Shown: one piece after another, positions 1-9,839 of the stretch
Position numbering within the stretch: the first letter of the stretch is position 1
How the letters are laid out: every line of letters begins with the position of its first letter
Source: Sulfurimonas sp.
GTDB lineage: Bacteria; Campylobacterota; Campylobacteria; Campylobacterales; Sulfurimonadaceae
Direction of reading: 5' to 3'
NCBI GenBank assembly: GCA_013791885.1
Contig: VMSZ01000011.1
Span: 1-40,727 of the forward strand
Length of the DNA: 40,727 nucleotides
Made by a program: the position numbers and the translations under genes
Notes under the pieces: model-generated
The model's database searches: none
What the model saw: only the letters and a program-made list of their open reading frames with translations
Told to the model about the DNA's origin: nothing

Positions 1-60
1 GACACCATAGAATCAAGCAAAGACGGGGCAAAAGCCTTTAGAGAAAAATTTTCGGTTTAA
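1..60 (+). CDS. C-terminal tail of a gene cut by the window start (possibly enoyl-CoA hydratase/isomerase family)
   Basis: An open frame from base 1 encodes 19 residues and ends with TAA at 58-60. The visible tail contains KDGAKAFREKF. This resembles the common C-terminal pattern of enoyl-CoA hydratase/isomerase proteins, in which a KEG..AF.EKR stretch closes the protein. That match is short and from memory, so the family is only a suggestion. The gene runs in the same direction as thiE, and copy A of the 80-bp structured repeat follows its stop codon after 60 bases. Confidence 0.45.
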   Translation, partial: DTIESSKDGAKAFREKFSV

Positions 61-120
61 ACGACAAATTTGCTCTACTAAAAACCTCCAAACTCCCATA
101 AAATACATATCAGATTATAT

Positions 121-200
121 TTCTGCCTCGAAAGAGGCAAGCTTCAGCGCCATAGCGGCTAGCGTAGCAAAGATGGGCTTAGCTCATTTTGCGTTTTAAA
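121..200 (+). repeat. Copy A of an 80-bp structured dispersed repeat
   Basis: Near-identical to 8095-8174 in the same orientation. It begins with a hairpin (stem GCCTC/GAGGC at 125-138) closed by the tetraloop GAAA. An almost invariant core follows at about 139-167. It ends with a second hairpin at 167-192: inner stem ATGGGC/GCTCAT, outer stem GCAAA/TTTGC, one bulged G at 172 and a TTA loop. A GTTTT run follows, so the last hairpin could act as an intrinsic terminator. The element ends 15 bases before the thiE start codon. It could be an RNA element, a terminator or a mobile palindromic repeat. Confidence 0.8.
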
Positions 201-215
201 AGGGAAAAATTTTGT

Positions 216-839
216 ATGTTTAAAGATAAATTACAAGGCTTGTATGTCATCACGGACGATGTTTTGACTCCGCCAAAAACACTTATGACTCAAGTAGAAG
301 AAGCCCTCAAAGGCGGCGCGAAAATAGTCCAGCTCAGAGATAAAACAAGCTCTCATGAAGATATAAAAAAAACTGCTCTCGCACTGCAAAAACTTTGTAA
401 TTCCTATAATGCTCTTTTTATCCTCAACGATGCAGTAGAGCTTGCTATAGAATTAGGGCTTAGCGGGCTTCATATTGGCAAGAGTGACCATCATAGAGTG
501 TCAGAGATTCGCAAAAAGTTTAAAGGGGTGCTTGGTGTTTCCTGTTATGGAGATATTGAATTGGCAATTGAGATGCAGGGAGAGGGAGTAGACTACGTTG
601 CGTTTGGTTCATTCTTTAGCTCGCCCACAAAACCGGGTTCAAACATCGTGCCTCTTGGTGTGCTTCGCATCGCAAAAAATAGCCTTGACATTCCCATCTG
701 TGCTATTGGCGGCCTCGATAGTGAAAATATATCCGATGTAATGCTGTATGAACCGGATATGGTTGCGTGCATAAGTGATATTTGGAAGAGCGAAAATATA
801 GAAGAAAAAAGTGCATTTTATAAGAACTTATATCTATGA
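216..839 (+). CDS. thiE: Thiamine phosphate synthase (ThiE)
   Basis: ThiE joins hydroxymethylpyrimidine diphosphate to thiazole phosphate in the cytoplasm to make thiamine phosphate. The 207-residue product has the family landmarks in order: GLYVITDD near the N-terminus, GGAKIVQLRDK, ILNDAVELA followed by GLHIGKSD, LGVSCYGDIELA, GVDYVAFGSFFSSPTKP (phosphate-binding region) and ICAIGGLDSENI near the C-terminus. Its length is normal for the family. I chose ATG 216 because AAAAGGGA lies upstream; an in-frame TTG at 189 falls inside the structured repeat and has no ribosome site. No thiamine pyrophosphate riboswitch is visible upstream, only repeat copy A. The TenI-like branch of the same fold is an alternative, but the substrate loops favour ThiE. 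Confidence 0.85.
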   Translation: MFKDKLQGLYVITDDVLTPPKTLMTQVEEALKGGAKIVQLRDKTSSHEDIKKTALALQKLCNSYNALFILNDAVELAIELGLSGLHIGKSDHHRVSEIRKKFKGVLGVSCYGDIELAIEMQGEGVDYVAFGSFFSSPTKPGSNIVPLGVLRIAKNSLDIPICAIGGLDSENISDVMLYEPDMVACISDIWKSENIEEKSAFYKNLYL

Positions 840-944
840 GGATACTAAGCAATCCAGTTTTAGCCGTAGCAATTACTGTAGACATTTTTTTGTTTTATCC
901 AATTAAGAGTACAATTGCGCTCTAATTTCCTTTTGAGAGAGAGT

Positions 945-1535
945 ATGAAAAATTTTTTATTTGCATCTTTTGTGTTGTTTACCTTTAGCGGCTGTGTTTC
1001 GAGTTCATTAAGCATGCAAGAAGAAAACGGTATTGTGCTTATGCAAGAAAAAAAGACTCTTGTAGCTCATGCAAAGCCTGAGGAAAAAAAAGTACTGCGT
1101 TTTACAAATCTTGATGTTTTACAGGTGCAATTGCAAAACGCAGCCAAAGAGAAGCTTTTTTATGAAGAGCTTGAAGCAAATCATGATTATGAGTTTAAAT
1201 ATGCAACAGTTGAGACACTTAAAAGAGTTTTTAATCTCAGTCGCTCGCATACACTACATCAATCAAGCAGTTTGTTGTTTATACAGCTCCAAAGCAAAGA
1301 TGGAAGTTATATAAATATATTTGCAGAGACAAGCAGTTTCCAGAAACTCTCTTTTGTCTATGGCTACTCAAACGCAGACTTTGAAGCGCTTGCCAAAGAG
1401 TTGGGTATCACTCTTGGTACTCCTGAGACAAACATCTTTATGCCCACAGAATCACTTACACATTGGAGCCAAAGCGATATATTTTTAAATCCTTTAGTCC
1501 AGCCCTTGTACCGAAAATATGGAATAGCTTTTTGA
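945..1535 (+). CDS. Putative lipoprotein of unknown function
   Basis: I do not recognise this 196-residue protein. It starts with a short basic end and a hydrophobic stretch ending in FSGC, a lipobox, so it should be lipid-anchored at the cell envelope with Cys near residue 18. The mature part is mixed alpha/beta in character, with a FIQLQSKDGSYINIFAE stretch and a GITLGTPE stretch, and no membrane segments or repeats. ATG 945 is preceded by a purine-rich GAGAGAGAG ribosome site; in-frame extension to a TTG-type start at 915 would place residues before the signal peptide. A TACAAT at 910-915 is a candidate -10 box. Its stop overlaps the likely start of the DTW-domain gene, so the two are probably translated together. 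Confidence 0.75.
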   Translation: MKNFLFASFVLFTFSGCVSSSLSMQEENGIVLMQEKKTLVAHAKPEEKKVLRFTNLDVLQVQLQNAAKEKLFYEELEANHDYEFKYATVETLKRVFNLSRSHTLHQSSSLLFIQLQSKDGSYINIFAETSSFQKLSFVYGYSNADFEALAKELGITLGTPETNIFMPTESLTHWSQSDIFLNPLVQPLYRKYGIAF

Positions 1536-2194
1536 CCTATTACGGAGACAGAGAGAAGTGTTATAAGTGTTATCGACCACAGAGTTCCTGTATGTGCGAA
1601 CATATAAATGCCGTTATGACAAACACGAAGTTTGTTATTTTAATGCACCCCAAAGAGTTTAAAAAAGTCAAAAATAATACCGGTTTTTTTACACATTTGA
1701 GTCTCTCAAACTCTGAACTTTTTGTAGGGGTGGATTTTTCCCAGCACAAACGCATAGGTGAAATACTTGCGACGCATGAGAGTTATATACTTTTTCCTTC
1801 ATCAGACGCAATTAATTTGAGTGAGCAAAATCCAAAAGCAGTAGATGAGAGTTCAAAAGAGATGGCGATTTTTATTTTGGACTCTACTTGGGCCTGTACC
1901 AATAAAATACTTCTTGAGAGTACAAATTTAAGAGAGCTTCCACACCTGAGTTTCACCACACAAAGAACTTCTCAATATCAAATTAAAGAACAACCCCAAA
2001 GCAATTACCTCTCAACCATAGAATCGACACTTGTAGTCTTGGAAGAGCTGCATAAACATAAAATAGAAAAAATAAAATCCGAGGAGTTGGAGAACTTTTT
2101 AAATCCTTTTTTTGAGATGATAGCTTATCAGCAGAAACTTATCAAAAATACACACAAAAGAGCTGTCCGCTATAAAAAAGTGATAGTTTTGTAA
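1532..2194 (+). CDS. DTW-domain tRNA-uridine aminocarboxypropyltransferase
   Basis: DTW-domain proteins (TapT/TrmX-type) transfer an aminocarboxypropyl group from S-adenosylmethionine to uridines in tRNA. The signature DSTW motif is present in the middle, and the N-terminus holds the cysteine cluster CYKCYRPQSSCMC (CxxC...CxC) usual for the family. At about 220 residues the length is normal. No ATG lies before the cysteine cluster. TTG 1532 overlaps the stop of the lipoprotein gene as TTGA, which would give coupled translation and a start just before the conserved YGDREKCYKC; a TTG at 1463 is possible but would overlap the upstream gene by 73 bases. Family assignment is firm; the exact tRNA position modified cannot be read from sequence. 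Confidence 0.85.
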   Translation: MTYYGDREKCYKCYRPQSSCMCEHINAVMTNTKFVILMHPKEFKKVKNNTGFFTHLSLSNSELFVGVDFSQHKRIGEILATHESYILFPSSDAINLSEQNPKAVDESSKEMAIFILDSTWACTNKILLESTNLRELPHLSFTTQRTSQYQIKEQPQSNYLSTIESTLVVLEELHKHKIEKIKSEELENFLNPFFEMIAYQQKLIKNTHKRAVRYKKVIVL

Positions 2195-2213
2195 TAACTT
2201 CTAAAAAAATAGT

Positions 2214-2219
2214 TATAAT
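2214..2219 (+). promoter_or_regulatory. Candidate -10 box for the carbonic anhydrase gene
   Basis: A perfect TATAAT sits 28 bases before the ATG at 2248, preceded by an A/T-rich run but with no clear -35 hexamer. This is the usual layout of housekeeping promoters in Campylobacterota. It implies the gene is transcribed separately from the DTW-domain gene. Confidence 0.5.
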
Positions 2220-2247
2220 CTTCGTCAATTCAAAAAAAGGTATATAA

Positions 2248-2997
2248 ATGAAATTAATAAGCGCAATTACCGCTGCACTTTTACTATCTGCATCGCTTAT
2301 GGCGAATGCTCATGCAACACACTGGGGATATACAGGTCACGAAGGTCCAGCTAACTGGGGTGATTTAGATGAAAAATACACAATGTGTAAAGTGGGTACT
2401 TCACAGTCACCAATTAATATTACTAAAGATGTAAAGATTGATACAAATGACTTAAAACCTATCGCGTTTAACTACGTAACAGGTGCATCAGAAGTTATTA
2501 ACAACGGACATACTATTCAGGTAAATATTAAAGACGGAAGCAGTATTACTGTTGATGGGATTGAATTTGCATTAAAACAATTTCACTTTCACACACCAAG
2601 TGAAAACCAGATAGAAGGGAAAAACTTTCCACTTGAGGGACACTTTGTTCACGCTTCAAAAGATGGCCAGTTGGCCGTTGTCGCTGTAATGTTTGAAGAT
2701 GGTGCAGAAAATCCGATTATCAAAAAAATCTGGGAGAAAATGCCTCATAAAGCAGAAGAGAAAAACAGCTGTGGATTATCTTCAAAAGTAATTAACGATA
2801 TGCTTCCAAAAGATAAAGATTATTACAGATTCAGCGGTTCACTTACAACGCCTCCATGTTCTGAGGGTGTTAGATGGTTAGTTATGAAAAACTACTCTCA
2901 CATTTCAGCAGAGCAGACAAAAGAGTTCTTAGAACTTTTCCACCATGCAAACAACAGACCTGTTCAGCCTATAAACGCAAGACAGATTGCAGAATAA
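2248..2997 (+). CDS. Periplasmic alpha-class carbonic anhydrase
   Basis: Alpha carbonic anhydrases interconvert CO2 and bicarbonate at a zinc ion. The protein is 249 residues with a cleavable signal peptide (about residues 1-21, ending ANA), so it works in the periplasm. Zinc ligands are His113 and His115 in FHFHTPSEN and His132 in EGHFVHA; the SPINI and GSLTTPPCSEGVRW motifs are also present. Cys47 and the Cys in PPCSEG can form the disulfide common in bacterial exported members. The start ATG follows AAAAAAGGT. In an autotroph it would feed CO2 or bicarbonate to fixation or pH control. A possible partner is the SulP transporter at 13203-14867, but this is only inferred. Confidence 0.95.
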   Translation: MKLISAITAALLLSASLMANAHATHWGYTGHEGPANWGDLDEKYTMCKVGTSQSPINITKDVKIDTNDLKPIAFNYVTGASEVINNGHTIQVNIKDGSSITVDGIEFALKQFHFHTPSENQIEGKNFPLEGHFVHASKDGQLAVVAVMFEDGAENPIIKKIWEKMPHKAEEKNSCGLSSKVINDMLPKDKDYYRFSGSLTTPPCSEGVRWLVMKNYSHISAEQTKEFLELFHHANNRPVQPINARQIAE

Positions 2998-3005
2998 GGC
3001 AAGTT

Positions 3006-3024
3006 AGTCTCTTTTTAAGAGACT
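3006..3024. terminator. Hairpin between convergent carbonic anhydrase and yggS genes
   Basis: A perfect 7-bp inverted repeat (AGTCTCT/AGAGACT, loop TTTTA) begins 8 bases after the carbonic anhydrase stop and overlaps the TAG stop of the minus-strand gene. It can serve both directions, but neither side has a long T tract, so it is a weak terminator prediction. Confidence 0.45.
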
Positions 3025-3697
3025 ACTTGTTAAACATCAGTGAGCCTAGTCTCACCATGTTTGAGCCGCACTCAATAGCTAACTCAAAATCCCCGCTCAT
3101 TCCCATAGAACAGATGCTTGCACCTTTTAACTCTTTGTAAATGTCGTAAGTTGTCTCAAAACTTTTTTTAATGATTTCTTTATCTTCCGTGTGCGCGCCG
3201 ATGCTCATAACACCTTTGAGGTTTATGTTTGGACATTCGCTTTGTATCTGCTCATAAACTGCTTTGGCAATTTCAGGCATAACACCGTGTTTGGACTCTT
3301 CTTTTGCAGAATTAATCTGAAGCAGAGCGTCAAGCGTCATCTCTTTTGCTTCAAGTTTTTTCTGTAATTCATGAGCAAGGTCCAACGAATCGAGTGCATG
3401 AAAAAGTGAAGGATTGATGTCAAGCAGATTGTTAATCTTGTTTTTTTGCAGGTTCCCAACAAAATGCCATTCCAGAGGCAACTCTTCAAGTTCAATTGAT
3501 TTAGTTTTTAAGTCTTGAACTTTGTTCTCTCCAAAAGCTCTTTGACCTATTTTATAGAGTTTTTCTATCTCATCTGAAGTCGAATATTTACTGATAGCCA
3601 CGATTTTTACGATGTGATGGTCGCTCACTTTAAGTCGTGCAGTCTCGACTCTTCTTATGACACTGTCAATATATATTTTGTATTCAATTTCATTCAT
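3023..3697 (-). CDS. YggS/PROSC-family pyridoxal-5'-phosphate homeostasis protein
   Basis: This family binds pyridoxal phosphate on a TIM-barrel fold and buffers free cofactor and amino-acid pools in the cytoplasm, with no known enzymatic reaction. Lys37 in IVAISKYS is the predicted Schiff-base lysine. Other conserved blocks are FGENKVQDL, LEWHFVGNLQKNKI and the C-terminal MGMSGDFELAIECGSNMVRLG phosphate-binding region (first part MSGDFE). At 224 residues it is full length. It starts 4 bases downstream of the rseP stop and is the last gene of the pgsA-rseP-yggS run. It ends in a hairpin shared with the convergent carbonic anhydrase gene. Confidence 0.9.
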   Translation of the reverse strand: MNEIEYKIYIDSVIRRVETARLKVSDHHIVKIVAISKYSTSDEIEKLYKIGQRAFGENKVQDLKTKSIELEELPLEWHFVGNLQKNKINNLLDINPSLFHALDSLDLAHELQKKLEAKEMTLDALLQINSAKEESKHGVMPEIAKAVYEQIQSECPNINLKGVMSIGAHTEDKEIIKKSFETTYDIYKELKGASICSMGMSGDFELAIECGSNMVRLGSLMFNK

Positions 3698-3701
3698 ATT
3701 A

Positions 3702-4754
3702 TCATCCTACTAATCGAGTTATATCGTTGTAAAGTCCGAGTCCCATAAGTGAGAAAAGAACCACCCATCCGGCAATGGTAAGTTTTATTAAAACTGCTTC
3801 GCTTGGAGCGCGTCTAGCTATCATCTCATAAAGATTAAACATTATGTGTCCGCCATCAAGAGCAGGAATTGGAAGCAGGTTTAAAACGCCAAGGTTGACA
3901 GAGATGAGGGCTGCAAAAAAGAAAACACTCATCCATCCGGCGTCTGTTGCATCGGAAGTAAGTTTGACTATGCTTATGACGCCGCCAAGTTCTTTTGCGG
4001 GAACATCACCGCTTAGGAGTTTTTGCACGCCTGTAAAAATCATTGTAGAGGCAAAAATGGTTTGTTTCGTTGCATAAGCAAGTGTTTCTGAGGCACTGAG
4101 CTCAAGTTTATGAGTCACACCGGCACTTGATATACCTATCATTTTACGCTCAACGACTTCATTGAACATATTTGTTGTCTGTTTTATTTCCGGAGTGAGA
4201 ATTTTGTACTCTACAAATCCGGCTCTCTCAATCTCAAGATTAAGAGCACCATTTGAATTTGCAATAATCTCAGCCATCTCTTCCCAAGTAGCTACAGGAG
4301 TGGCGTTTATGGAACGAACTGTGTCATTAGACTCAAGTCCCGCTACAAAAGCCGGAGAATCCTTTACAACATCGCCTATGACAGGAGAGAGGATATTCGG
4401 TCCGCCGAGAGCGATAAAAAAGTAAAGCACAAAGGCTAAGATGAAGTTTGCCGCAGGACCTGCTAAAAGTATAAAAATGCGTTGCAACGGTGTTTTTGTA
4501 TTGTAACTGTCTTTGTCTAAACTTACTTTACTCGGGTCAGAATCATCCTGGCCCTTCATCTGAACATAACCGCCTAGAGGTATCATCGCTATTTTCCATT
4601 CGGTTCCCCAAGCACGAAATGAGGCTATTTTTTTGCCAAAACCGATGCTGAAAACTTCTACATAAACGCCCATTAAACGAGCTGCCATATAGTGTCCCAG
4701 CTCATGGAAGAAAATAAGTGCCGAGAGGACTACAAGAGATACTAACCAACTCAT
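3702..4754 (-). CDS. rseP: RseP-type site-2 membrane metalloprotease
   Basis: Site-2 proteases cut transmembrane segments of anti-sigma factors or signal peptide remnants in the inner membrane. The zinc site HELGH is at residues 17-21 inside the first membrane segment, and the third ligand region NLLPIPALDGGH is in the last third. A single PDZ-like region lies between, around residues 120-205. At 350 residues it has the length of the single-PDZ epsilonproteobacterial form rather than the longer E. coli protein. Its start overlaps the stop of pgsA by ATGA (4751-4754), giving coupled translation, and yggS follows after 4 bases. The substrate cannot be told from sequence. Confidence 0.9.
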   Translation of the reverse strand: MSWLVSLVVLSALIFFHELGHYMAARLMGVYVEVFSIGFGKKIASFRAWGTEWKIAMIPLGGYVQMKGQDDSDPSKVSLDKDSYNTKTPLQRIFILLAGPAANFILAFVLYFFIALGGPNILSPVIGDVVKDSPAFVAGLESNDTVRSINATPVATWEEMAEIIANSNGALNLEIERAGFVEYKILTPEIKQTTNMFNEVVERKMIGISSAGVTHKLELSASETLAYATKQTIFASTMIFTGVQKLLSGDVPAKELGGVISIVKLTSDATDAGWMSVFFFAALISVNLGVLNLLPIPALDGGHIMFNLYEMIARRAPSEAVLIKLTIAGWVVLFSLMGLGLYNDITRLVG

Positions 4755-5305
4755 GCGATTTCTCCTTTTAAAAGAGCTTTTCTAAAGCCCCACAGGTATT
4801 CAAACCCTGAGTAAAGAGTAATGGCAACGGCTAACCATAAAAGTTCAGCTCCAAAAGGCCAGTGCATCAGTAAAAAACCTATTGCTATCATTTGGAGAAC
4901 GGTTTTTATTTTCCCTGCCCAAGAAGCTTTGACGCTTAAGCCTTCACTCACGGCGACAGTGCGTATGCCTGTGATGAAAAGCTCACGAACAATGATGATG
5001 TAAATAGCCCAAGCAGAAGCTTCTCCTATCATCATAAGCCCTAAAAACGCAGCTAATGTGAGCATTTTGTCAGCGAGCGGGTCAAGAATAGCTCCAAGCA
5101 TGGTCATTTGGTTCCACTCTCTGGCAATATAGCCGTCAAAAAAATCTGTAGCAGAAGCTAAAACAAATAAAAGTGAAGCAAAATAGTAGTTCCAAGTTAT
5201 ATCAAAACCATTCTCAGTAAAAACTTGCGGATTTAAAATAATCCAGAACATAAGAGGTGCTAAAAGTATGCGAAGAGATGCTAAGATGTTGGGTAGATTT
5301 AGCAA
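4751..5305 (-). CDS. pgsA: CDP-diacylglycerol-glycerol-3-phosphate 3-phosphatidyltransferase
   Basis: PgsA makes phosphatidylglycerol phosphate, the committed step to phosphatidylglycerol and cardiolipin, in the inner membrane. The complete CDP-alcohol phosphatidyltransferase motif is present: DFFDGYIAR, then G eight residues on, then DPLAD. The 184-residue length and several membrane segments fit the family. The start is TTG at 5305 in front of LNLPNILASLR; TTAAGGAC lies 5 bases upstream, a good ribosome site, and no ATG is nearby. It leads the pgsA-rseP-yggS operon and is divergent from the acyltransferase gene at 5426. Confidence 0.92.
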   Translation of the reverse strand: MLNLPNILASLRILLAPLMFWIILNPQVFTENGFDITWNYYFASLLFVLASATDFFDGYIAREWNQMTMLGAILDPLADKMLTLAAFLGLMMIGEASAWAIYIIIVRELFITGIRTVAVSEGLSVKASWAGKIKTVLQMIAIGFLLMHWPFGAELLWLAVAITLYSGFEYLWGFRKALLKGEIA

Positions 5306-5378
5306 AAAAAGTCCTTAAAATATGAATAGGAAATTCTAGCCTTTTGGCTCTTAATATCGGCTTGTATTTGGCTTTTAA

Positions 5379-5408
5379 TTGACATAGGTTTGAAATCTTG
5401 GATATCAT
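5379..5408 (+). promoter_or_regulatory. Candidate sigma-70 promoter for the acyltransferase operon
   Basis: TTGACA at 5379-5384 and TATCAT at 5403-5408 are spaced by 18 bases. A recognisable -35 box is unusual next to the other promoters in this window. Transcription would begin near 5414-5416, which favours translation from ATG 5426 over ATG 5414. Confidence 0.5.
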
Positions 5409-5425
5409 AAAAAATGGAAAAATTA

Positions 5426-6598
5426 ATGGATTTTAAAAAGATTGAAAATAGAGTTTTAGCGCTTAGCCCGTATCTTGAAAATATAAAAGTGAGTCTCCGC
5501 GGGGGGAGACTTTTTGCAAGCATGACGCCTGATTTTGAAGCACTGCAAAAAGCCAATATTATCAACATAGAAGATGAGCTGAAGTGGTACGCAGTGGAAC
5601 TCTATAATCTTGAAGTACCGGATGAAGAAAAAATTCGCGGCTATGAAATAGTTTATCCTAAAATCAGCAGCGAAGAAGAGCCAAAAGAAGATGAAATATA
5701 CAGACGTCTCAAAGGTTTTTTGCAAACACTTAGCAGTGCAAAAATAAACTACAATTCGCATTTGGAACTCGATTTGGGGCTTGACTCCATCGACTATGTA
5801 GAACTTTTTATTTTTGTAGAGGAGAGCTTCGGCGTTCTTATAGATGAAAAAAACTTTGCCTCCATGATGCGCTTGCATGAACTTTATTTGTATGTTAAAG
5901 AGCATTGCAAAGCTGTGCAAAACGCAAGCAGCAGCCTTAATGAAGCTCTCAAAGAGCCGATAAAAGAGAAACTCAGATACTCGCCTTTTATCATGCTGCT
6001 CTATAAAATTTTTCTTTTTCCTCTTTTTAAACTCTATTTTCGTCTTGAGGTGAGCGGAAGAGAAAATATTCCCCAAAGTCCTTGCATATTCGCGCCTTCA
6101 CACCAGAGTATGCTTGACGGCTTTTTAGTGGAGTCGTCTTTGCCGTACAAGACTTTGAAAAACACTTTCTTTTTGGCCTACAAAAATGTTTTTGGTACAA
6201 AATTTTTAAAGCCGATTTCGGATAATGGGCAAACAATACTCATTGATGCCAATGAAAATCTCAAACACACCCTGCAGTATGTCGCTCTGCCGCTGCATGA
6301 GCATAAAAACCTTGTTATTTTTCCAGAAGGTGCCAGAACAAGAGACAGAGAACTTTTGGAATTTCGGCCTTTTTTTGCCATGCTCTCTAAACTTTACAAT
6401 GTTCCTGTTGTACCTGTTTTAGTCGATGGCAGTTTTGAAGCCCTGCGAAGCGGAACGCTTTTTCCAAAACCAAAAAAAATTATCGTGCGTTATTTGGAGC
6501 CGATTTATCCCGATGGACTTGACGTTGCAGAGATTACTCAAAAAACAAAAGATGCCATTGCCTATGAGCTAAAATCAAACGGAGTTTTTTCACGATGA
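5426..6598 (+). CDS. Fusion of degenerate acyl-ligase tail, acyl carrier domain and PlsC-type acyltransferase
   Basis: Three parts can be read. Residues 1-75 resemble the small C-terminal subdomain of long-chain acyl-CoA/acyl-ACP ligases, including a GRLFASMTPDFEAL stretch, but the large AMP-binding domain is absent and the usual PKT..GKI.R lysine loop is replaced. Residues about 85-160 form an acyl carrier domain, LGLDSIDYVELF, with Ser121 as the phosphopantetheine site. Residues about 180-390 are a PlsC-type lysophospholipid acyltransferase, with motif I HQSMLD (226-231), FPEGART (299-305) and VPVVPV. It probably moves an acyl chain held on its own carrier domain to a lysophospholipid or related acceptor. 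ATG 5426 has a GGA-containing site 6 bases upstream; ATG 5414 adds 4 residues. It overlaps the next gene by ATGA. The function is inferred from domains only. Confidence 0.8.
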   Translation: MDFKKIENRVLALSPYLENIKVSLRGGRLFASMTPDFEALQKANIINIEDELKWYAVELYNLEVPDEEKIRGYEIVYPKISSEEEPKEDEIYRRLKGFLQTLSSAKINYNSHLELDLGLDSIDYVELFIFVEESFGVLIDEKNFASMMRLHELYLYVKEHCKAVQNASSSLNEALKEPIKEKLRYSPFIMLLYKIFLFPLFKLYFRLEVSGRENIPQSPCIFAPSHQSMLDGFLVESSLPYKTLKNTFFLAYKNVFGTKFLKPISDNGQTILIDANENLKHTLQYVALPLHEHKNLVIFPEGARTRDRELLEFRPFFAMLSKLYNVPVVPVLVDGSFEALRSGTLFPKPKKIIVRYLEPIYPDGLDVAEITQKTKDAIAYELKSNGVFSR

Positions 6599-7353
6599 GT
6601 TTTCTAAAACTTTTTAAAAAGCCGGGACTTATAGCGGCACACAGAGGTGCCAGAAGTTTAGCACCGGAAAACACACTCAAAGCACTGCAAATGAGCCTTG
6701 GAAGATGTGATTTTATGGAGATAGATGTTCAACTCAGTTCTGACAATGTCGCGGTGATTATGCATGATGAAACGCTGAAGCGAACTACTGACGTAAAAAG
6801 CTTTGAGGAGTTTAAGAAACGCAGCCCTTATAAGGTTTGTGACTTTACATTCAAAGAGTTGAAAAAGCTTGATTATGGAGAAGGTGAGCCGCTTTTAACA
6901 CTTGAAAAAGCACTTGCGTTTGTGCAGGAAAATGCAGTATATATAAATGTAGAACTCAAAGATGTAAGCGGGAATTTTGAAGATGCGTTTTTTGTCTCTC
7001 TTGTGCTTGAGCAGATACAAAAACATAAAGTAGAAGCATATGTTTTACTCTCTTCATTTCGTCACGAATACCTGCGTTTAGTCAAACAAAAAATGCCAAA
7101 TATGCCGACTGCGGCTTTGGTAGAAGATGTACATCCTGAGAATCTTTTAGAGTATCTTAAAGATTTAAAAGTCGAAATGTACAATCTCAATGATGAACTT
7201 GTAGATGCCGATACAGTCCAAAATTTAAGAAACGCAGGATACTTCGTCGGTGTTTATACAGTCAATAGCAAAAAACGTAAAAACGAGCTCTTTGCAATGG
7301 GTGTAAATGCTATTTACACAGACAAACTTTATCTAGAATCAGGAAAACTATGA
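6595..7353 (+). CDS. Glycerophosphodiester phosphodiesterase
   Basis: GDPD enzymes split glycerophosphodiesters into glycerol 3-phosphate and an alcohol. The N-terminal catalytic block is intact: IAAHRGARSLAPENT with His16 and Arg17, the metal ligands Glu42 and Asp44 in MEIDVQL, and VIMHDETLKRTTD with His57. VYINVELKD supplies a further metal ligand, and the C-terminal GVYTVNS and GVNAIYTDK blocks complete the barrel. No signal peptide is seen, so it is cytoplasmic. The 252-residue length is typical. It overlaps the acyltransferase (ATGA 6595-6598) and the methyltransferase (ATGA 7350-7353). This suggests lipid headgroup or lysophospholipid turnover linked to acyl transfer. Confidence 0.92.
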   Translation: MSFLKLFKKPGLIAAHRGARSLAPENTLKALQMSLGRCDFMEIDVQLSSDNVAVIMHDETLKRTTDVKSFEEFKKRSPYKVCDFTFKELKKLDYGEGEPLLTLEKALAFVQENAVYINVELKDVSGNFEDAFFVSLVLEQIQKHKVEAYVLLSSFRHEYLRLVKQKMPNMPTAALVEDVHPENLLEYLKDLKVEMYNLNDELVDADTVQNLRNAGYFVGVYTVNSKKRKNELFAMGVNAIYTDKLYLESGKL

Positions 7354-7976
7354 AACAAAATTGCCCGCTTTGCTCGCATGAAGCCACACTTTTTTATCAA
7401 AACACAGACAATTATTTTCAATGCAAAGAGTGCCACTCTCTATTTGTAGATACAAACGCAAGACCGAATATAAAACAGGAAAAAGAACGCTACGAACTCC
7501 ACAGTGATGATGTTGAAGATAAAGGCTACCAGAACTTTGTCTCACCTATGACCTCGGCTATTATGCAAGATTACTCAAAGCAGAGCAGGGGTTTGGATTT
7601 TGGCGCGGGAATAGGGCCGATTATCTCAAAAGTCGTGCAGGACAGGGGCTATAACATCAAGCAGTATGATCCGTTTTTTCATAATTACCCAGAGCTTTTA
7701 AAAGAAAAATACGATTATGTGGCCTCTTGTGAAGTAGTGGAACATTTTTACCATCCGCATAAAGAGTTCGGACTTTTAAAAAGTTTATTGGACGAAGATG
7801 CAAAGCTTTATATTATGACGGATTTGTATGATGAGAGCATTGATTTTGCAAAGTGGTATTACAAAAATGACAGTACTCATGTTTTCTTTTACACAAAAGA
7901 GAGTTTTGAATGGATACAAAAAGAGTTTGGGTTTAAAAGTTTAAAGATAGATAAGAGACTTGTGACTCTCTCATAA
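7350..7976 (+). CDS. Zinc-ribbon class I SAM-dependent methyltransferase
   Basis: The first 30 residues carry two CxxC pairs (CPLC and CKEC), a probable zinc ribbon. They are followed by a Rossmann-type methyltransferase domain: the SAM loop LDFGAGIGP near residue 88, an acidic strand end at QYDPFF, and CEVVEHFYHP, which fits motif IV. The 208-residue size suits a methyltransferase-12-type protein. The substrate is unknown. The four-base overlap with the phosphodiesterase gene suggests a lipid or headgroup-linked target, but this family also methylates proteins and small molecules. It is the last gene of the operon, and the repeat-rich region 7977-8174 follows. Confidence 0.8.
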   Translation: MKQNCPLCSHEATLFYQNTDNYFQCKECHSLFVDTNARPNIKQEKERYELHSDDVEDKGYQNFVSPMTSAIMQDYSKQSRGLDFGAGIGPIISKVVQDRGYNIKQYDPFFHNYPELLKEKYDYVASCEVVEHFYHPHKEFGLLKSLLDEDAKLYIMTDLYDESIDFAKWYYKNDSTHVFFYTKESFEWIQKEFGFKSLKIDKRLVTLS

Positions 7977-8094
7977 AGAATCATTAATAAAGAAAATGCA
8001 CCTCTCGTTCCAATGCTCCAGCGTTGGAATGCATAGGTCAGTTTTTGTAGCTGGTAGGTGTTCCCACGGAGACCATGGGAACAAGAAAAAATAT
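7977..8094. repeat. Intergenic palindromic repeats (REP/BIME-like)
   Basis: Two hairpins lie between the converging methyltransferase and fabL genes. The first (8006-8031) is a near-perfect 12-bp palindrome with arms CGTTCCAATGCT and AGCGTTGGAATG and a two-base CC centre. The second (8060-8082) has perfect 7-bp arms GTTCCCA and TGGGAAC. The GTTCCCA...TGGGAAC and TTCC..GCTCCAGC..GGAA pattern recalls dispersed palindromes I know from other proteobacteria; that likeness is from memory. No coding sequence is supported here. Copy B of the 80-bp repeat follows directly. Confidence 0.7.
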
Positions 8095-8174
8095 TCTCTG
8101 CCTCGCAAGAGGCAAGCTTTAGTGCCATAGCGGCTAGCGTAGTTTTATGGGCTTAGCTCATAAAGCGTTTTAAA
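8095..8174 (+). repeat. Copy B of the 80-bp structured dispersed repeat
   Basis: It matches copy A at 121-200. The first hairpin (8100-8113) has the same GCCTC/GAGGC stem but a GCAA loop, also a GNRA tetraloop. The terminal hairpin (8142-8166) has 11 consecutive pairs: outer GTTTT/AAAGC and inner ATGGGC/GCTCAT with a TTA loop. The outer stem differs from copy A on both sides while still pairing. GTTTT follows, and the element ends exactly at the fabL stop codon. It may terminate the plus-strand operon ending at 7976. Confidence 0.8.
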
Positions 8175-8942
8175 TTATTGAAATGTTGTTCCGCCGTCTA
8201 TGACGATAGTCTGGCCTGTAAGCCATGAAGACTCATTGCCACAGAGGAAAAGACAAGCACCTGTTAAATCTTCAGGCTCACCCATACGTGAAAGCGGAGA
8301 GCGTTTAACAACTTCTGCTTTTACCTCTTCGTAATTAGGAAATGCTTTGAGTGCGTCTGTGTCGATTGGACCGCCGCTCACTGCGTTTACTCTGATGTTT
8401 TTCTCACCAAGTTCCGCTGCAGCGTAACGAACCATAGCTTCAACAGCTGCTTTGTTTGTTCCGTGACCTGCGTAGTTAGGAGTGTAAACAAGGTTACCTG
8501 TTGAGCTCATGCTTATGATGCTTCCGCCGCCGACTTTTTCCATACGTTTTGCAGCTTCCTGTGCGCCTACAACAAAGGCATCAACCGTTGCAATATAAAT
8601 GTTATTTAAACCTTTTGGTTTGAGTCTCATAAACGGACCAAAACCGCCTACAACAGCACGTCCTGAAATGATTGCGTTTGAGATGAAGTAGTCAAGTCTC
8701 TCAAAATCTTCATCAAAAAGTTTGTAAACATCTTTGTAAGTATCCGGCTCTAAAATGTTTAGTAAGTATGCACGTGCTTTTACGCCAAATTTTGTCTCTA
8801 CATCTGCAACGATTTCATTTGCAACATCTGCGCTTGAAGCGTAAGTAAACGCAACGTTACAACCTCTTGCCGCAAAAGCGTATACTAATGCTTTACCAAT
8901 TCCGCGAGTTCCGCCACTTACAAATAATGTTTTTCCTGTCAT
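8175..8942 (-). CDS. fabL: SDR-family enoyl-[acyl-carrier-protein] reductase, FabL-like
   Basis: FabL-type reductases saturate enoyl-ACP with NADPH in fatty acid elongation. The 255-residue protein has the SDR cofactor loop GGTRGIG at 10-16 and FISNAIISG. Its catalytic pair is Tyr157 and Lys164 separated by six residues (YAGHGTNK), the spacing of enoyl reductases, not the Yx3K of ordinary SDR dehydrogenases. The C-terminal block NAVSGGPIDTDALKAFPN closely resembles Bacillus subtilis FabL as I remember it. The gene follows dapA after 3 bases. Whether it is the main enoyl reductase or a second one beside FabI cannot be told here. An ordinary oxidoreductase is the alternative. Confidence 0.75.
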   Translation of the reverse strand: MTGKTLFVSGGTRGIGKALVYAFAARGCNVAFTYASSADVANEIVADVETKFGVKARAYLLNILEPDTYKDVYKLFDEDFERLDYFISNAIISGRAVVGGFGPFMRLKPKGLNNIYIATVDAFVVGAQEAAKRMEKVGGGSIISMSSTGNLVYTPNYAGHGTNKAAVEAMVRYAAAELGEKNIRVNAVSGGPIDTDALKAFPNYEEVKAEVVKRSPLSRMGEPEDLTGACLFLCGNESSWLTGQTIVIDGGTTFQ

Positions 8943-8945
8943 TTT

Positions 8946-9839
8946 TTAGAGTCCTTTTATGTCGTAATTTTTCATTACTTCTTCGATTTTTTTCATATTT
9001 TCTACACTTGGAGCCACCAATGGAAGACGGTATTCAAGAGTTTCAATGAGTCCTGCTATGTACATCGCCGCTTTTATAGGTACAGGATTTGATTCGCAAA
9101 ACATTACCTTATTGAGTGGGTAAATTTTGTCATTTATCGCTTTTGAAGCTTGAAAGTCACCCGCAAGAGCAAGTCTGACGAGTTCGCTTTTAAGGTCTGG
9201 TATAAGGTTTGAAGTCACAGAAGTAATTCCTGCAGCACCGTTTGCAAGCATTGGGTAGTCAATCGCATCATCACCTGAGAAAACTTTGAGTTCAGGGCGG
9301 CGAGACAAAAGCTCAATAGTACGTTCTAAACTTCCCGTTGCTTCTTTGATACCGTAGATGTTTTTTACATCATCAAAAAGTCTGATGACTGTGTCCGCAC
9401 TAATGTCTACAACTGTACGTCCAGGAACATTGTAAAGCATAAATGGAAGTTCTGGAACTGACTCTGCTATGGCTTTATAGTGCTGATAAAGTCCCTCTTG
9501 AGATGGTTTTACATAGTAAGGTGCAACTGAAAAAATGGCATCTACGCCGCATTCCTGAGCTACTTTTGCTGCTTGGATTGCTTCTGATGTTGAGTTGCTG
9601 CCTGCACCCGCAAGAACTTTTGCTGATGTTCCTTTGCAAACTTCTACAGCTATTTCCATACATCTTCTGTCTTCTTCGTAGCTTAATGTGGCGCTCTCTC
9701 CAGTTGTTCCAACCGGGCAAACTGCGTTTATGCCATTGTTTATTTGGCGTTTGATAAGCGCTGCATAAGCCTGCTCATCAAGTTTACCGTTTCTAAATGG
9801 AGTTATCAGTGCAGTTGTAGAACCTGTTACTATATTCAT
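8946..9839 (-). CDS. dapA: 4-hydroxy-tetrahydrodipicolinate synthase
   Basis: DapA condenses pyruvate with aspartate semialdehyde, the first committed step to lysine and meso-diaminopimelate for peptidoglycan. All active-site residues are visible: Thr45-Thr46 in CPVGTTGES, Tyr136 in MLYNVPGRT and Schiff-base Lys165 in YGIKEATGS. The 297-residue length is standard. ATG 9839 is the proper start, beginning MNIVTGSTTALITPF after a GGGG-containing site. A longer in-frame extension to 9923 would run across the promoter TATAAT (9867-9872, minus). It is followed by fabL, as in Campylobacter. Confidence 0.95.
   Translation of the reverse strand: MNIVTGSTTALITPFRNGKLDEQAYAALIKRQINNGINAVCPVGTTGESATLSYEEDRRCMEIAVEVCKGTSAKVLAGAGSNSTSEAIQAAKVAQECGVDAIFSVAPYYVKPSQEGLYQHYKAIAESVPELPFMLYNVPGRTVVDISADTVIRLFDDVKNIYGIKEATGSLERTIELLSRRPELKVFSGDDAIDYPMLANGAAGITSVTSNLIPDLKSELVRLALAGDFQASKAINDKIYPLNKVMFCESNPVPIKAAMYIAGLIETLEYRLPLVAPSVENMKKIEEVMKNYDIKGL

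Follow-up and report, generated by a model that had tools for sequence, protein, structure and literature searches.

The 40,727-nucleotide stretch of Sulfurimonas sp. DNA analysed here, which we refer to as the window (assembly GCA_013791885.1, contig VMSZ01000011.1, forward strand), contains two members of a family of small, folded, intergenic repeats dispersed in the Campylobacterota, among sulfur-metabolizing relatives of Campylobacter. Re-reading of the sequence placed copy A at 121–200 and copy B at 8096–8174, near-matching elements of about 80 bases, as an initial annotation made from the sequence alone had described. Copy A lies between the end of an upstream plus-strand frame (stop codon 58–60, by eye) and an open reading frame (ORF) resembling thiamine phosphate synthase (named by eye), which has an ATG at 216 and is listed from a TTG at 189. 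Copy B follows a plus-strand ORF at 7350–7976 and abuts the stop codon (8175–8177) of a minus-strand, reductase-like ORF at 8175–8942 (named by eye). A plus-strand stop codon therefore lies upstream of each copy, by 60 bases for copy A and 119 bases for copy B, and GTTTT follows the last hairpin in both, as had been noted.

In both copies, as in the family, a hairpin (P1) is followed by a near-invariant core with a smaller hairpin (Pm), the tag GTA, a second large hairpin (P2) and an AT-rich tail, the whole spanning about 79 bp. The initial annotation mentioned neither Pm, present in both copies, nor the contact of copy B with the minus-strand stop codon. The features are listed below with scores from R1, a covariance model built from 20 chosen copies, copies A and B included.

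121–200, plus strand: copy A (R1, 94.3 bits, E = 8.8e-18)
124–139, plus strand: copy A hairpin P1, TGCCTC-GAAA-GAGGCA (fold; covariation)
141–163, plus strand: copy A core, GCTTCAGC (fold; family conservation)
149–151 with 157–159, within the core 141–163, plus strand: copy A hairpin Pm, GCC/GGC
within the core 141–163, plus strand: copy A possible closing GCT/AGC helix, without covariation
164–167, plus strand: copy A tag GTAG, the 5' foot of P2, its last G pairing with C192
167–192, plus strand: copy A hairpin P2, GCAAA(g)ATGGGC-TTA-GCTCATTTTGC, containing one bulged G and, close to the loop, a G-T pair
193–200, plus strand: copy A 3' tail, GTTTTAAA
8096–8174, plus strand: copy B (R1, 96.2 bits, E = 3.6e-18)
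8099–8114, plus strand: copy B hairpin P1, TGCCTC-GCAA-GAGGCA (fold)
8116–8138, plus strand: copy B core, GCTTTAGT (fold; family conservation)
8124–8126 with 8132–8134, within the core 8116–8138, plus strand: copy B hairpin Pm, GCC/GGC, and a possible closing GCT/AGC helix
8139–8142, plus strand: copy B tag GTAG, the 5' foot of P2, its last G pairing with C8166
8142–8166, plus strand: copy B hairpin P2, GTTTTATGGGC-TTA-GCTCATAAAGC (fold; covariation; G-T count)
8167–8174, plus strand: copy B 3' tail, GTTTTAAA

When the window was scanned with R1, copies A and B stood far ahead of the next best match (E = 1.3). Folded singly, each copy is only mildly better than its shuffles (z = −1.3 for copy A and −2.1 for copy B), so it is the family that makes the element convincing.

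A repeat family with compensated stems

The search of the whole genome and its relatives with a covariance model, which the initial annotation had proposed, returned many further copies. In the genome of origin (2.52 Mb in 75 contigs), blastn with window positions 101–220 found 18 places, and R1 found 24 at E ≤ 0.001 and 31 at E ≤ 0.1. The same blastn query matched 22 of 60 genomes, and R1 detected copies in 111 of 135 genomes of the genus, including 69 of the 79 that are at least 90% complete and at most 5% contaminated. Across a sample of the phylum, copies were present in 69 of 397 genomes, representing 10 of 68 genera and the families f1, f20, f4 and f6; the genome of origin is included in these counts. 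Four genomes of family f20 carry 27, 33, 39 and 41 copies at E ≤ 0.01. In the genus and phylum surveys the per-genome counts are lower bounds, with up to 34 candidates scored per genome in the former and up to 11 in the latter. One genome of a further family, f17 (G052), has two blastn matches and a good copy (L033, 74 bits), and is missing among the phylum-survey matches.

An exact-pattern scan returned at least 117 stretches, and 115 of those listed have Campylobacterota titles, which name Sulfurimonas, Sulfuricurvum, Sulfurospirillum, Helicobacteraceae and less resolved groups. The other two, from Rhizobium (L091) and an uncultured Clostridiales (L111), lack the flanking hairpins, and we took them to be chance matches rather than spread beyond the phylum. 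Copy A alone (121–200), used as a blastn query, had no match in plasmid and phage collections; three viral-contig stretches fit the pattern, one of which (L187) resembles, by eye, the bacterial locus that holds copy A. Some of the loci come from one genome retrieved twice (L037 with L163, and L029 with L178). Chance, or an artefact of two similar copies, is ruled out by the blastn matches in the genome of origin, the covariance-model copies, the spread through the genus and the covariation described below.

The family consensus reads TCT - P1 - (A)GCTTYAGT - Pm - nnAGCG - TA - P2 - GTnYAAA. Across the 20 chosen copies the core is largely invariant, whereas P1 and P2 change. The P1 loops of copies A (GAAA) and B (GCAA) are indeed of the GNRA type, as first described, but this does not extend to the family: among the loops parsed for 147 of 162 sequences, GNRA accounts for only 28 of the 86 that have four bases, and we discarded it as a family trait. 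Tags were parsed for 150 copies and 19 mis-anchored rows were set aside; in the remaining 131, the four bases at the foot of P2 read GTAG in 90 and G[TCA]AG in 112. The sequence after P2 is mostly GT-N-Y-AAA-like, and its first bases are linked to the tag: TA goes with GT in 118 of 123 cases, AA or GA with GT in 10 of 21 (uncorrected for kinship).

Copies A and B differ in the terminal stem, P2, on both sides and still pair, and this compensation is strong throughout the family, in P1 as in P2. An alignment of 20 copies of regular geometry, picked by eye (A1; aligned with MAFFT and no structure model), had 89.5% of its stem cells paired, against 75.4% after shuffling. Two larger alignments, which were fitted to the covariance model and so lean towards its structure, gave 95.7% against 74.8% (A3, 112 sequences; covariation score 0.556 against 0.161) and 95.6% against 74.3% (A4, 50 sequences; 0.584 against 0.186). 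When partners were slid by one to three columns, the covariation fell to 0.063–0.175 over A3 and A4, and to 0.063–0.132 in A3 alone. In A3, all 6 P1 pairs and 10 of the 11 P2 pairs have changed on both sides. One set of rows was drawn from 100 of the 117 listed pattern-scan loci; another comprised 20 loci from genome G055 and 24 of 30 from the genome of origin, leaving out L059, L061, L064 and L066–L068 because of inserts, overlap or weakness. P1 and P2 thus vary widely yet stay paired, which supports the view that the hairpins are under selection.

Pm is invariant in A1 and has few changed cells in A3 and A4. Support for it comes mainly from variants in the genome of origin, whose outer pairs co-change (AGCC/GGCT, CGCC/GGCG, GGCC/GGCC, AACC/GGTT and GACC/GGTC, by eye), and Pm was not seen, again by eye, in the weak copies L066 and L068 or in the second copy in L028. 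The GCT/AGC helix that might close the core is without covariation support, because none of its pairs has changed on both sides in A1, A3 or A4.

Strand of folding and relation to neighbouring genes

We then asked which strand the mismatches favour. We collected 149 distinct P2 stems by scoring Watson–Crick pairs alone and tolerating up to three positions of other kinds. Read on the top strand of the element, they contain 66 G-T and 6 A-C mismatches when neither the closing pair nor the pair third from the loop is counted. That third pair is G-T in 82 of the 149 and A-C in 5. If a cruciform in double-stranded DNA were what matters, G-T and A-C should be equally tolerated; the large excess of G-T indicates that the top strand of the element folds alone.

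This strand bears no fixed relation to the neighbouring genes. Of 118 loci, 17 have no gene on one side or lie inside a long frame; in the 101 others (L091 and L111 excluded), the element is sense to both neighbours in 43 and antisense in 42, with 11 in convergent and 5 in divergent gaps. A larger, overlapping set of loci gave 58, 55, 21 and 11 respectively. Where both neighbours run against the element (55 copies), the third P2 pair is G-T in 46 and A-C in none. Folding is therefore strand-specific and indifferent to neighbouring transcription: folding of the neighbours' messenger RNA (mRNA) does not explain the structure, whereas an RNA made by the element itself, or single-stranded DNA, does.

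The same data bear on the suggestion of the initial annotation that the element might be a structured 3' end or a mobile terminator, that is, a cis-acting terminator or mRNA-stabilizing hairpin spread by ordinary duplication. Placement speaks for it: of the 76 loci in which the gene on the P2 side is oriented towards the element, 59 have no more than 15 bases between a stop codon and the P2-side end, whereas uniformly distributed positions in those gaps would give 45%. Copy B is also flagged as terminator-like, at P2 on the plus strand and at P1 on the minus strand. It is the only one of the two window copies to be flagged, however, and terminator-like sites in window positions 1–9000 are not in excess (9 against 7.4 expected). 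P2 is usually succeeded by a GT-N-Y-AAA-like tail and not by a U-run, sense and antisense placements are equally frequent, and in antisense copies the conserved G-T pair would read A-C in the neighbours' transcripts. Furthermore, the gene beside copy B lacks the element in 13 of its 15 closest fetched loci, where similarity stops at the stop codon of the gene and unrelated DNA lies beyond; copy B is at the same place in G139 and, by overlapping coordinates, in G103. Because of the even orientation, the usual lack of a U-run and the retention of the G-T pair on the strand opposite the transcript, the terminator reading is unsupported, and we regard a cis-acting 3' end as very improbable.

A small structured RNA with its own promoter, or a mover with an RNA intermediate, in either case with the core binding a protein or target, deserves more weight, although we still consider it unlikely. 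A near-invariant core between freely varying but paired stems is typical of structured RNAs, and mismatches of the G-U type predominate in P2. A site in a tRNA cluster (Pro-His-Arg-Arg-Leu, or part of it) also fits: the element lies antisense after tRNA-Arg in L032, L158, L160, L173 and L179, its structure is intact, and the P2 hairpins of L158 and L160, nearly identical elsewhere, are set apart by a compensatory A-T to G-C pair. In these five records, among them L160 (2013–2766) and L179 (21–724), the element occupies one or two spacers of the cluster. On the other hand, the equal orientation to neighbours means that such an RNA would need a promoter of its own, and promoter-like sites in window positions 1–9000 are not in excess (20 found, 20.5 expected). 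No Rfam 15 family matched the window at the curated gathering threshold; in lenient scans of two copies, one had a sub-threshold match to a CRISPR repeat (E = 2.4) and the other none.

Turnover among relatives

The element is present in some relatives and absent from others at the same place. Between genomes G055 and G342, 19 of 20 fetched element regions of G055 have a partner in the fetched stretches of G342. At two of them (L253/L273 and L259/L279) G055 has the element and G342 a short element-free spacer, with flanks 90–97% identical; at a third (L255/L275), unalignable DNA stands in G342 in place of the element. Four other comparisons (L248, L252, L256 and L264) show deletions within the element or of one tandem copy, and in L266/L286 the P2 stem is altered on both arms and still paired. 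Several pairs among the 13 comparisons inspected are unchanged or almost so. Some copies stand in tandem, duplicated together with part of their flank (L289 and L290), and nested arrangements are also found.

At another site, copies in L035 and L037 lie upstream of the start of an flhB-like gene (by eye), and both flanks resemble the first codons of that gene; L098, L163 and L170 were placed alongside them by their similar flanks. The arrangement suggests a duplication that may be linked to the element. A transposon hidden between close inverted copies was also considered and rejected; the one pair examined (L020) encloses a 142-amino-acid ORF and an exonuclease-like ORF (by eye).

The initial view of a selected and perhaps mobile hairpin element thus holds, on the strength of the further copies, the compensatory change and these presence/absence differences, while a terminator or mRNA role is unsupported. 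On balance we favour, with no great margin of confidence, a non-autonomous mobile DNA repeat of the Campylobacterota, resembling repetitive extragenic palindromic (REP) sequences and recognized as a folded single strand. We infer that the folded form is single-stranded DNA rather than a self-made RNA, and that the mobilizing activity acts in trans. When the top strand becomes single-stranded, for example during replication, it would fold into P1, the core with Pm, GTA, P2 and the GT tail; an enzyme would recognize the near-invariant core and the shape of both hairpins, and would copy or move the element into intergenic gaps, often beside a stop codon, where inserted copies would then decay by deletion. 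Tentatively, we suggest that the repeats could form a distinct and, in part of the Campylobacterota, widespread class of miniature mobile elements. An enzyme other than the Y1/RAYT transposases would then read a near-invariant single-stranded core between two hairpins that are free in sequence, their stems differing yet paired within one genome.

Several observations weigh against mobility of a folded single strand. Neither a target-site duplication nor an exact empty site could be read in the comparisons of G055 with G342. The tRNA-cluster copies are intact in five records, with P1 stems that differ widely yet pair; this site is the best hint of conservation in place, and selection in place could account for it. 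The 149 P2 stems contain 34 mismatches other than G-T and A-C, and once the third pair is left out the G-T excess is weak in antisense copies (10 against 4 A-C), compared with 21 against 0 in sense copies. Replication-fork bias was not significant (25/41, 25/39, 18/33 and 17/27); for this test GC skew served to place the origin in G055 and G382, and the midpoint was used as terminus. Because the sequences are related, the counts given here are not independent events. Finally, no mobilizer was found in a genus-wide scan for PF01797 (the Y1 family, to which RAYT and IS200 transposases belong) or at 51 fetched Y1 loci: 63 of the 135 genomes of the genus have no match at E ≤ 0.001, yet 46 of these carry copies, one of them 30, and none of the 51 loci, which are a part of all Y1 places found in the genus and chosen-genome scans, has an element within about 1.5 kb.

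If a novel enzyme does move the element, it would represent a new system for processing single-stranded DNA; if the element is REP-like, a class so far represented chiefly by simple palindromes would gain a composite form with a core. The compensatory variation is very strong for a dispersed repeat, and the strand asymmetry makes the choice between single-stranded DNA and RNA directly testable. The family is large, has no counterpart in Rfam to judge from the scan of the window, and was not described in the papers that our literature searches returned.

Candidate mobilizers and known repeat families

A REP of the GTAG type, mobilized by a RAYT (Y1) transposase of the host, was also considered. 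Several features fit: the GTAG tag precedes P2 in most parsed copies, and short loops, placement at gene ends and G-T pairs resemble the GTAG REPs described in PMC3733652. PF01797 matches occur in 72 of the 135 genus genomes, 65 of which carry copies, and genomes with a match have a mean of 7.3 copies compared with 4.4 in those without (p = 0.005, uncorrected for kinship and completeness); a match is also present in 17 of the 22 genomes that were selected because of their copy number or kinship. One of the genomes, G005, had no match in the genus scan and a weak one (E = 1.1e-4) in the chosen-genome scan. Against this, each unit spans 79 bp and comprises three hairpins as well as a long core, whereas a GTAG REP is a palindrome of 20–40 bp; some copy-rich genomes lack a Y1 match (G021 with 30 copies, G136 and G032); and the fetched Y1 loci are without the element. 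The sole Y1 gene of the genome of origin was set aside as a partner, because its flanks carry a different palindrome (by eye). We consider mobilization by a host RAYT improbable; a Y1 enzyme acting on the element in trans is possible but not indicated.

The Y1-like gene of the genome of origin (L019, 1000–2400; G000:C73) is surrounded by palindromes of the form GCGAAGGCAAGCCATCGCTTCC and their inverted forms (by eye). These appear to be a separate REP-like system.

Miniatures derived from IS200/IS605 elements (PATEs and MITEs) offer a second comparison, in that they too have a hairpin near each end and fold on one strand, as the G-T and A-C counts show for the element. The linked bases 5' and 3' of P2 recall the guide and cleavage sequences of IS200/IS605, to which they may be analogous. 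No relative of the element that shares its ends with a tnpA gene was seen among the 51 fetched Y1 loci.

The likeness to GTAG REPs and REPINs with their RAYT (TnpA-REP) goes further. According to PMC3733652, these are dispersed intergenic palindromes near gene 3' ends, with GTAG at the foot of the hairpin, and they occur as grouped copies and as subfamilies with different stems. The element likewise is intergenic, between co-directional and convergent genes and near their 3' ends. It differs in having three hairpins and a long near-invariant core, in stems that differ from copy to copy of one genome although the core is almost constant, and in keeping the tag only partly; there is also no RAYT beside the element copies examined, and none was detected in some copy-rich genomes. 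CGTC REPs, RPE and dRS3 repeats resemble it as dispersed small palindromes without a dedicated transposase, but, as presented in the same paper, they are single stem-loops of 8–9 bp with a terminal CGTC, an architecture that the element does not share. It is closest to the GTAG REPs, through its placement, its G-T pairs and, in part, its tag, but departs from them in unit size and in the lack of a linked RAYT, and is assigned to no known family.

GTAG repeats are reported in Sulfurovum in PMC3733652, and these may include an earlier, partial sighting of P2. A table row in PMC12306157 names a Sulfurimonas genome, and none of four genus or class names searched for was present in PMC6006769.

Other small repeats accompany the element. 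Just upstream of copy B, window positions 8006–8084 hold two other palindromes, CGTTCCAATGCTCCAGCGTTGGAATGC and GTTCCCACGGAGACCATGGGAAC, and a similar repeat follows P1 in an interrupted copy (L018). Nested repeats are also seen as small palindromic inserts, in the linker between P1 and Pm in L061 and L067 of the genome of origin and inside the P2 loop in L114. Further simple hairpins of the GAGTTCTGCAAGAACTC type lie a few bases past the element tail in L288, L253, L254 and L291, and several Sulfurimonas loci carry one of the ATGGAGGGTTTCCTTCAT type there.

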